Positions 4,392-53,481 of a stretch of 64,000 nucleotides of DNA are shown piece after piece (the stretch's first letter is position 1; each line of letters opens with the position of its first letter). The DNA comes from an uncultured Alphaproteobacteria bacterium. Lineage in GTDB: Bacteria; Pseudomonadota; Alphaproteobacteria; RF32; CAG-239. The notes beneath the pieces are model-generated. The model saw nothing but the letters and a program-made list of their open reading frames with translations. It did no database searches and was not told the DNA's origin. The position numbers were made by a program, and so were the translations under genes. The stretch spans positions 122,595 to 186,594 of the forward strand of contig CALYBC010000009.1 of assembly GCA_944393725.1 (NCBI GenBank), given 5' to 3'.

Positions 4392-4532
4392 GTATTGGAG
4401 ACAGGACTACCCATTTAGGAACTTAAGCTTGCTTGCATTGTAAATAAAATTCCGGTTGATTTTTTTTATAACTGTGATATGAGAAAAATGTCATCTAATT
4501 TTTATTGTTAAATCTAAAAAAATTATTTTTTT

Positions 4533-7111: not shown

Positions 7112-7187
7112 GGGTGCGTAGCTCAGTTGGTAGAGCAACTGACTCTTAATCAGTGGGTCTGGGGTTCGAACCCCCACGCGCCTACCA
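7112..7187 (+). tRNA. tRNA-Lys(CUU)
   Basis: A 76-base cloverleaf. The acceptor GGGTGCG pairs with CGCGCCT, the D-arm is TAGCTCAGTTGGTAGAGC, the anticodon loop CTCTTAA gives anticodon CUU, and the T-arm is GGGGTTCGAACCCCC. CCA is encoded. A second, partial copy of its 3' part lies downstream (see the entries at 7221 and 7362). Confidence 0.97.
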
Positions 7188-7219
7188 ATAAAAAAGGTCT
7201 CTTTATGAGACCTTTTTTT
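7176..7219 (+). repeat. 44-bp direct repeat, copy 1 (tRNA-Lys 3' end plus terminator)
   Basis: Covers the last 12 bases of tRNA-Lys, including CCA, and the whole terminator. It is identical base for base to 7362-7405, 186 bp downstream. Confidence 0.95.
7191..7219 (+). terminator. Terminator of tRNA-Lys
   Basis: Stem AAAAAGGTCTC / GAGACCTTTTT with loop TTTAT and seven T in total. An identical copy recurs at 7377-7405 after the duplicated tRNA end. Confidence 0.88.
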
Positions 7220-7220
7220 G

Positions 7221-7361
7221 TTGGATAGGTAATGTCGGGTTTGAACCCCAGAGGCTGGGGTTCGACTACCAGCGAAAGCGATACGGGGGTATCGCGGTGA
7301 GCGGAGCTCATGAGCGCCAGTGCAACTCGAGCCTTTTATAAAAGGCGAAGAGTAACCCTTT
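7221..7361 (+). other. Structured tRNA-adjacent element A
   Basis: A non-coding stretch between the two 44-bp repeats. It begins with a degenerate inverted copy of the tRNA-Lys T-arm (GAACCCCAG, 7243-7251), then a direct copy of the T-arm 5' half (CTGGGGTTCGA, 7255-7265). A core of about 88 bases (7266-7353, starting CTAC and ending AGT) follows, then AACCC leading into repeat copy 2. Hairpins: GAACCCCAG / CTGGGGTTC, GCGATAC / GTATCGC (7278-7295), and GCCTTTTATAAAAGGC (7331-7346). The core shares its layout with the element after tRNA-Pro at 53322. No ORF is credible here. Confidence 0.8.
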
Positions 7362-7405
7362 ACGCGCCTACCAATAAAAAAGGTCTCTTTATGAGACCTT
7401 TTTTT
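7362..7405 (+). repeat. 44-bp direct repeat, copy 2 (tRNA-Lys 3' end plus terminator)
   Basis: Exact copy of 7176-7219: the 3' acceptor strand with CCA, then the same terminator hairpin and T-run. It has no complete tRNA in front of it, so it is a tRNA fragment, not a second gene. Confidence 0.95.
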
Positions 7406-7554: not shown

Positions 7555-8343
7555 ATGAAATTTGTCAAATATACTTTGCTGGCATTACTGGCAATTATCG
7601 TAATTGCTATTATTGCAGCGTGGATCTACTTAGAGCCGTTGGTTAAGGGCGTCGTTAATAAGTTTGGTACGCAAGTAGTCGGTACGGAAGTTACTTTGGA
7701 TGGTTTTAAATTACATCCCATTGATGGTGAATTGGAAATTACCGGTCTTAAAGTTGCCAATCCTCAAGGTTATAAAGAACCAAATTTGTTGAGCTTGGGC
7801 GGGGCTTTTGTCAAGGTAGATGTTAAGAGCTTATATTCCGATACTATAGTTGTCGAAAACATTAGAGTTACTGCTCCGGAAATTACTTATGAAATGCCGA
7901 ATTTTACAACCAGCAATATTCAACAGATTCAAGAAAATATTGCTGAAAATACTGCTTCGACTAAAAACAAACAACCGGTTAAGGAAGAAACAACCGAAGT
8001 CAAGTCCGAGCCGGCCAAAAATGTTGTTATTCGCAATGTCTTGGTTGAGGATGGTAAACTTTCGGCTTTGACACCGTTACAAAAGAGCGGCGAGGCTTTG
8101 GTGCTGGATTTACCAGCTATCGAAATTACCGGCATCGGTGACGGTCGTAAGAATATGACTATTGACGAATCGTTGACTATCGTATTTAACAGAATTCTGT
8201 TTAATGCGACTTCTGTTGCTACGAAAGCTTTAGGAAATGTTTCCGATGCGGCTAAAAAAATTGCCGATGAAGCAGCCGAACAAGCTAAAGGCAAAGTCAA
8301 GGACGAAGCTGAAGGTTTGTTGAATAAAGTTAAATTCTGGTAG
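7555..8343 (+). CDS. AsmA-like membrane-anchored envelope protein
   Basis: A 262-residue protein with an N-terminal membrane anchor (residues 5-27) and a periplasmic part resembling the start of AsmA/DUF748 proteins (VGTEVTLDGFKLHPIDGELEITGLKVANPQGY, shortened here to its pattern of beta-strands, about residues 42-75). AsmA-type proteins act in lipid transport or outer-membrane assembly, but this one is far shorter than AsmA itself. The C-terminus is an Ala/Lys/Glu-rich helix. I start it at 7555 because AAGGAG lies nine bases upstream; a GTG at 7522 is in frame but has no such site. It is a single-gene unit followed by a strong terminator. Confidence 0.75.
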   Translation: MKFVKYTLLALLAIIVIAIIAAWIYLEPLVKGVVNKFGTQVVGTEVTLDGFKLHPIDGELEITGLKVANPQGYKEPNLLSLGGAFVKVDVKSLYSDTIVVENIRVTAPEITYEMPNFTTSNIQQIQENIAENTASTKNKQPVKEETTEVKSEPAKNVVIRNVLVEDGKLSALTPLQKSGEALVLDLPAIEITGIGDGRKNMTIDESLTIVFNRILFNATSVATKALGNVSDAAKKIADEAAEQAKGKVKDEAEGLLNKVKFW

Positions 8344-8360
8344 TCTTGTTCTTGGGTATA

Positions 8361-53234: not shown

Positions 53235-53311
53235 CGGGACTTAGCTCAGCCTGGTAGAGCGCTTGCTTTGGGAGCAAGATGTCGTTGGTTCGAATCCAAT
53301 AGTCCCGACCA
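53235..53311 (+). tRNA. tRNA-Pro(UGG)
   Basis: A 77-base cloverleaf. The acceptor CGGGACT pairs with AGTCCCG, the D-arm is TAGCTCAGCCTGGTAGAGC, the anticodon loop TTTGGGA gives UGG, and the T-arm is TTGGTTCGAATCCAA. CCA is encoded (53309-53311). Its 3' portion is duplicated 160 bp downstream. Confidence 0.97.
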
Positions 53312-53321: not shown

Positions 53322-53452
53322 TAAAAAATAATTATTTGTACTATTGGATGAGAACCAACGGGCGTTGGTTCGACTACAAGGAATAGGCGAGACGCGGGTA
53401 TCGCCGATTTTGTTTTTTATAAAAACAAAAATTCCGCAGAGGCAACTTTAGT
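53322..53452 (+). other. Structured tRNA-adjacent element B
   Basis: A non-coding insert between the 29-bp repeats. It carries an inverted copy of the tRNA-Pro T-arm region (ACTATTGGAT, three altered bases, then AACCAACG, 53340-53360) and a direct copy of the T-arm 5' half (CGTTGGTTCGA, 53363-53373). A 79-base core follows (53374-53452, starting CTAC and ending AGT), leading into AATCC of repeat copy 2. Hairpins: AACCAACG / CGTTGGTT; GGCGAGAC / GTATCGCC (53386-53405, one mismatch); TTTTGTTTTT / AAAAACAAAA (53408-53430). Layout and core motifs match the element after tRNA-Lys at 7221. Confidence 0.8.
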
Positions 53453-53481
53453 AATCCAATAGTCCCGACCAAAGTTTGAAG
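53453..53481 (+). repeat. 29-bp direct repeat, copy 2 (tRNA-Pro 3' end)
   Basis: Exact copy of 53293-53321, including T-stem 3' half, acceptor strand and CCA, without a complete tRNA before it. Confidence 0.94.

Follow-up and report, generated by a model that had tools for sequence, protein, structure and literature searches.

Bacterial islands and phages classically integrate at tRNA genes, and the choice of site is thought to be fixed by the integrase together with its attP. Small mobile DNAs without genes of their own are represented by MITEs, REPs and PATEs, which are short, multi-copy, hairpin-forming and dependent on a helper. Folded single-strand sites such as the integron attC consist of an imperfect hairpin with extrahelical bases, the paired arms of which rebuild the recombination site. 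Integration inside the T-loop of a tRNA gene has been described for the mycobacteriophage Ms6, which uses a tRNA-Ala gene (class II sublocation) and carries the attP core AGGGGTTCGAATCCCCTTAGCTCCAC (PMC1762012). The ssrA islands of Dehalococcoides, associated with the serine recombinase DsiB, lie in the middle of the T-loop of tmRNA, with 20-bp direct repeats (PMC3146451).

The window analysed here, a stretch of 64,000 nucleotides, is part of the 1.44-Mb draft genome G000. Like these systems, it contains repeats of a tRNA 3' end that begin at the T-loop, but the DNA between the repeats is a structured unit of about 170 bases (165–190 bp) with several hairpins and no gene.

The element downstream of tRNA-Lys

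All features of this element lie on the + strand. The host or target gene is tRNA-Lys(CTT) at 7112–7187, with the T-loop TTCGAAC, as called by ARAGORN and Rfam RF00005. Its 3' side is occupied by a terminator-like hairpin (7188–7219), which belongs to a 44-bp repeat, and then by the spacer GTTGGATAGGTAATGT (7220–7235), which, compared with the reverse complement of the tRNA 3' end, is a decayed inverted CCA and acceptor strand; this inverted acceptor copy is better kept in two other copies of the element (L102 and L116). The inverted copy of the tRNA-Lys T-arm (7236–7251, the start being approximate), recognised from the sequence and its local match score, pairs as a hairpin with a direct copy of the T-arm 5' half, CTGGGGTTCGA, which runs through A58 of the T-loop (7255–7265) and was assigned by the identity of its T5' stem to its own tRNA. 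Where the rest of the T-loop would be expected stands the conserved core CTAC...AGTA (7266–7354), placed by alignment A2 and scoring 91.5 bits with the covariance model R1; its ends are ambiguous by one A, the alternatives being 7266–7353 (CTAC...AGT) and 7266–7354 (CTAC...AGTA).

Covariation supports three parts of the core, namely helix P2 (7272–7315), in which GCGAA at 7272–7276 pairs with TGAGC at 7311–7315, hairpin A (7278–7295, GCGATAC-GGGG-GTATCGC) and hairpin B, which is variable in sequence (7298–7310, TGAGC-GGA-GCTCA). Alignment and covariation together support the conserved linker GTGCAACTC with hairpin C (ACTC/GAGT) at 7320–7353. Helix P2 contains tandem G-A pairs in the Lys core, whereas in another subtype it is Watson-Crick. 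The core is followed by a second copy of the tRNA-Lys 3' end (7355–7373), comprising an altered T3' half, the acceptor strand and CCA, and by a second terminator-like hairpin (7374–7405) identical to the first. Since the second T3' half is inexact (AACCCTTTACGCG vs AACCCCCACGCG), the exact 44-bp repeat (7362–7405) starts 12 nt before the end of the tRNA rather than 19 nt as in most relatives, and it consists of these 12 nt, up to and including CCA, and 32 nt beyond. The original prediction had described this exact repeat, the inverted T-arm, the direct T-arm 5' half at 7255–7265 and a core at 7266–7353, and each was found where it had been placed.

The sister element that had been proposed at a tRNA-Pro gene is likewise real. 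Downstream of tRNA-Pro(TGG) (53235–53311, ARAGORN), and again on the + strand, are an inverted tRNA-Pro T-arm (53340–53360, 19 of 21 positions matching, with TC changed to GA in the loop), a direct T-arm 5' half (53363–53373), a core of the subtype with a Watson-Crick P2 (53374–53453; covariance-model hit at 53365–53459, 61.7 bits) and an exact second copy of the tRNA-Pro 3' end (53454–53471). The layout of this element (53340–53471) is that of the Lys element, while the sequence of the core and the arms differ, and it folds far better than shuffled sequences, with z-scores of -7.0 as DNA and -4.3 as RNA.

The 64 kb contain three copies of the motif GACTACC (4405, 7264 and 8339), each of them just downstream of a tRNA and on the strand of that tRNA; the fourth tRNA of the window is accompanied by GACTACA instead. 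At tRNA-Ser(GCT), ACAGG (T5' stem) and ACTACC follow the terminator (4402–4411, + strand), and at tRNA-Ser(TGA) the terminator is followed by CAAGACTACCAG (8333–8345, - strand). By their sequence both look like remnants of deleted elements, and all four tRNAs of the window therefore seem to be present or former hosts.

Unit layout and match to the local tRNA

Throughout the family the unit begins with the terminator hairpin, continues with the inverted acceptor and T-arm copies, a short loop and the direct T-arm 5' half, which ends in TTYGA, and reaches the core CTAC...AGTA, after which come the second tRNA 3' end through CCA and usually a terminator. Where a tRNA lies upstream, the element sits on its 3' side and on the same strand. 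In the first set, 66 of the 94 copies with an upstream tRNA begin 50–85 nt past it, and most of the remainder are one or more units further along tandem arrays. The hosts amount to about 20 tRNA species (Lys-CTT and Lys-TTT, Trp, three of Pro, three of Arg, three of Ser, two of Val, Met, Gln, Leu, two of Glu, and Ala), and a degraded copy adjoins Thr-CGT.

The arms of each unit correspond to the tRNA beside which it stands. Identity of the T5' stem is 0.968 to the unit's own tRNA against 0.523 to other tRNAs, that of the T3' half plus acceptor is 0.825 against 0.498, and the local match score of the inverted T-arm is 0.675 against 0.385. The element also tracks variants of the T-stem between species, such as GTTGG, GTAGG and GACGG at Pro-TGG, AGAGG and AGACG at Arg-TCT, and CGGAG at Lys. 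Inspection and counts indicate that the inverted copy is often short by two or three nt at the joint of acceptor and T-stem, and that its T-loop is often changed to TTTGAA, TTAGAA or TGAGAA. Departures from the usual layout were observed at some tRNA-Lys genes: in L049, L008 and L015 a second, related hairpin form (GGTTCGAACCAAGGTTCGTCTAGC...) follows the inverted T-arm without a core and is perhaps a decayed or different element, and in L046 (G021:C14:13600-16200) about 1.1 kb of different DNA stands in place of the core after GACTACCA, and beyond it the usual tRNA 3' copy resumes.

The left end of the direct repeat falls exactly at T-loop position 58, giving a repeat of 19 nt (58–76) in 47 of 65 cases. 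The repeat stops 0–5 nt past CCA in 20 of 48 single units and includes the terminator in the others. A tRNA 3'-end repeat that starts in the T-loop and leaves the tRNA intact is the mark of T-loop-type integration, and this is the arrangement observed. Some 36 loci have no good second 3' copy, and many units are therefore decayed.

Cores at different tRNAs within one genome are usually about 65% identical (median 0.65). The Ser and Met elements of G060, two Ser elements of G121 and the Ser and Arg elements of G015 nonetheless have cores that are 93–95% identical, with flanks that match each tRNA, and the hybrid L207 (G536) combines an inverted T-arm and T5' half of Pro-GGG type with the T3' half and acceptor of the local Pro-TGG. 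The core, and once the core with its 5' arm, has therefore reached new tRNAs, although on sequence comparison the near-identical cores could stem from gene conversion rather than transposition. No clean pair of empty and filled sites from one strain was found.

Structure of the core

Most helices escaped automatic consensus folding; the structure was therefore drawn up manually and assessed by counting. In 100 distinct copies 83.5% of cells are paired, compared with 65% in shuffles, 24 of the 27 pairs change on both sides, and double-change cells number 445 against 139 in shuffles and 24–132 in slid controls, these counts being taken from an alignment that was fitted to the model and hence leans towards it. 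Three motifs, GACTACnAG, GTGCAACTCAAG and AGAGTA, are near-invariant and mostly unpaired. The helices contain 1,731 Watson-Crick, 27 G-T and 10 A-C pairs (about 1770 pairs in all, 1.5% of them G-T), whereas the tRNA stems of the same loci have 5–10% G-T. The small number of G-U pairs argues for a fold in DNA, or for ongoing hairpin correction, rather than for RNA; the conserved G-A pairs and GNRA-like loops make an RNA form of the core possible.

These results bear differently on the three readings offered in the original prediction, of which the miniature mobile element is the best supported. A tRNA-mimicking RNA ending in CCA received no direct support: the copies are without the tRNA 5' half, a terminator separates them from the tRNA, and the low share of G-U in the core fits a DNA fold better. 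tRNA identity requires both acceptor strands, and the element has only the 3' part from the T-arm on. A single template-switch accident leaves the same layout at about 20 tRNA species unexplained, though template switching may help to keep the arms matched to the tRNA.

Distribution of the family

BLAST searches with the element matched 30 of 58 genomes, all of one genus, and none of 24 genomes of other families. Covariance model R1 was built from 18 relatives with aligned cores (A2) and the hand-set structure. The search with such a model, which the original prediction had suggested, gave hits in 30 of the 35 genus genomes and, across the order, in 138 of 153 genomes, all but one of these in a single family, with 15 of 17 genera represented. 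Far from being restricted to the Lys and Pro loci with no conserved structure, the core is thus widespread and strongly covarying. Chance is thereby excluded as the source of the arrangement, as it is by the folding of the Pro copy. The host family comprises uncultured gut Alphaproteobacteria, nearly all of which have the element; a single genome can contain as many as 18 copies, which frequently form tandem arrays with a period of about 165–190 bp. In a spread of 385 genomes across the class, clear R1 scores were confined to that family and to one genome (G340) of another family, in which 2 of 12 genomes have the element; a second outsider was borderline (E = 0.0099), and the other Alphaproteobacteria sampled in this spread had no element.

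When 84,980 species genomes were scanned with a pattern, 47 stretches were returned, nearly all of them titled uncultured Alphaproteobacteria or proteobacteria and several from ruminant or deer gut samples. Typical elements were also seen in one record titled Lactobacillaceae (L167) and one titled Kiritimatiellae (L199), both probably mis-titled or mis-binned MAG contigs. The strict pattern had no match in viral contigs, and no match was found in plasmids and phages. A phage origin was considered and rejected, the two matches of a short pattern in viral contigs lying inside phage coding genes and being due to chance. No Rfam family came near its gathering score for the element at curated or relaxed thresholds, and the literature on tRNA-linked miniature or SINE-like bacterial elements yielded no description of it.

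Candidate helper enzymes and neighbouring islands

The unit has no integrase of its own, its 165–190 bp leaving no room for a gene. Tyrosine recombinases and integrases do not track the element, and the element-rich genomes G060, G005 and G120 have only two tyrosine recombinases, presumably XerC and XerD. Among 33 genomes of the genus, Y1_Tnp, sought as a test of REP/RAYT and IS200/IS605 systems, was present in 8 and absent from most element-rich ones, and reverse transcriptase was present in 10 and does not track the element. The DEDD recombinase that would indicate IS110 exceeded the cut-off in 1 of the 33, and the TnpB nuclease, a test of OMEGA RNA, did so in none; neither follows the element. 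No autonomous partner with the same ends was seen among the islands read.

Islands at the same tRNAs contain Ssp-type phosphorothioation defence, Gabija, HEC-05 and AbiU-like genes. After tRNA-Leu(TAA) in G003:C7 (L134/L209) lies an Ssp-type island (SspC, SspD, PbeC/DndD-like) with a possible integrase gene beside the tRNA and the element at its far end. A prophage-like island at tRNA-Ser, with a terminase and a serine recombinase of 543–549 aa, occurs in two genera (L123/L124, G153:C1:48500-72000, and L208/L133, G016:C51), and the defence genes at its right end differ, being Gabija and HEC-05 in G016 and a HamB-like helicase in G153. Its left end directly follows the tRNA in G016 and the 3' copy of the element in G153, as expected if that copy was the landing site within an array or if the unit was inserted later. 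Also in G153 (L123), the start of a Cas9-like gene (160 aa seen) lies directly past the second element, downstream of the element-bounded island. The Pro-CGG elements L118 (G008) and L090 (G009) have a similar stretch past their CCA (CATCAGACAGCTAGGATTTTT and CATTGGACAGCTAGGATTTTT), perhaps a shared island end. The notion of the elements as general boundaries of defence islands was rejected: the right ends of islands stop at a tRNA 3' fragment with the element beyond, and islands and elements therefore use the same tRNA independently.

Proposed mechanism and rival explanations

The preferred explanation, given about an even chance of being correct, is a gene-less, non-autonomous and target-specific mini-element that inserts into the T-loop and is moved by an enzyme acting in trans. 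It is favoured because the repeat has the form left by T-loop integration in Ms6 and the Dehalococcoides ssrA islands. The element would insert on the strand of the tRNA, with the 3'-end repeat (58 to CCA) on both sides and the tRNA whole, and would bring along a terminator of its own, two T-arm copies (one inverted, one direct) and the core with its many hairpins. The recombinase would most likely be an integrase specific for the T-loop and encoded by a co-resident island or phage. It would act on the element with the core folded out, probably as a cruciform or as single-stranded DNA, and the T-arm copies would offer a site resembling the target. Because neither reverse transcriptase nor Y1, TnpB or IS110 tracks the element, and some element-rich genomes have only two tyrosine recombinases, the role of helper may fall to XerC/XerD or to a passing integrase, or there may at present be no helper. 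The arms might become matched to a new tRNA through hairpin-templated repair, or conversion among T-arm copies within 200 bp, which is a guess. Against mobility, an integrase with a fixed attP would not alone yield arms that follow the local T-stem, and the candidates tried (tyrosine recombinase, Y1, reverse transcriptase, TnpB, IS110) included no helper. That the family forms a new class of gene-less element, retargetable and family-wide, whose flanks are rebuilt from each target and whose core, folded as DNA (or RNA), directs the insertion to the T-loop while the tRNA is restored, is a more doubtful proposition, offered tentatively.

Old, immobile tRNA-linked repeats are a rather unlikely source of the same features. 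Direct-inverted-direct duplications of the 3' end would have arisen by template switching at the terminator palindrome, with an old core, and gene conversion, hairpin-templated correction and unequal exchange would have kept them alike. All parts do lie inside 200 bp with large palindromes, tandem copies are near-identical, the scarcity of G-U fits quasipalindrome correction, and elements at a given tRNA are retained in different genera (Lys in g1 and g39). Cores that are nearly the same at unrelated tRNAs, and likewise the hybrid L207, nonetheless require transfer between loci, the near-invariant unpaired motifs are not explained by hairpin correction, and about 20 tRNAs with the same layout would need many independent switches. 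It is unlikely that the unit is an attachment-site remnant (a CIME-like attR) of one larger integrative element with the core as its conserved end. A tRNA 3' fragment does end the unit as it would any attR, the tRNAs concerned also receive islands, and in the Dehalococcoides ssrA islands the repeat is immediately preceded by a conserved motif (PMC3146451). The island right ends examined carry other sequence, however, no integrase-bearing element ending in the core was seen, and a single fixed end would not take on the T5' and inverted arms of some 20 tRNAs.

An element with a structured RNA core, copied through RNA, for example by reverse transcription of a tRNA-linked transcript, is quite unlikely. 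The multi-branched fold with its GNRA-like loops, tandem G-A and conserved unpaired motifs would suit it, as would the excess of G-T over A-C (27 vs 10) on the tRNA strand and the terminator that follows most units, and the limit of the repeat at position 58 (tRNA 58–76) would have a parallel in the 18-nt primer copy of retroelements. G-U pairs are, however, four to five times rarer than in the tRNA stems of the same loci, the reverse transcriptase of 10 of the 33 genus genomes does not follow the element, and no promoter was identified. A benefit to the host, as a regulatory RNA or as a decoy landing site that diverts integrases from the tRNA gene, has a still smaller probability. The presence of the element in 90% of family genomes is in keeping with such a role, and so is the use of the same tRNA 3' ends by islands and prophages, the prophage left end standing after the element copy in G153 and after the tRNA in G016. 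Complete genomes of the same genus nonetheless lack the element, the occupied tRNAs vary between species, many copies are decayed, and the element lies past the right end of several islands, which means that the tRNA itself was used.

Comparison with known systems

A gene-less family that matches its arms to about 20 tRNA species would show another way of choosing and changing a target. It would also offer hundreds of natural folded sites for the study of T-loop recombination and would mark defence islands that share these tRNA loci.

With the integron attC the element shares an imperfect hairpin with paired arms, but no integron integrase or attC consensus was recognised, and the target is the tRNA T-loop. 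MITEs, REPs and PATEs are similarly short, gene-less, multi-copy and hairpin-forming, whereas for the units described here a matching transposase is lacking (Y1_Tnp occurs in 8 of 33 genomes); they are adjacent to tRNAs and possess a 19-nt repeat of the tRNA 3' end. Ms6 is alike in its T-loop integration and in the block of identity from the T-stem and T-loop to near the tRNA 3' end (PMC1762012); it differs in having its own integrase and an attP that matches one tRNA family, in contrast to a gene-less element that combines an inverted T-arm with a structured core and occupies about 20 tRNA species. The Dehalococcoides ssrA islands and their cis-mobilizable relatives are also found in the middle of the T-loop, with tandem 3'-end repeats and integrase-less members (PMC3146451), but they are of kilobase size, carry cargo, use one tmRNA gene and have only a 15-bp motif before the repeat, and they are not known to have a target-matched inverted arm. 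Islander-type tRNA islands resemble the family in that a regenerated tDNA and a displaced 3' fragment mark their ends and in forming tandem arrays (PMC4383910); Islander searches require an integrase gene, which units of about 170 bp do not have. The direct and inverted copies of its own host tRNA's 3' end in each unit point to an undescribed kind of miniature mobile element.
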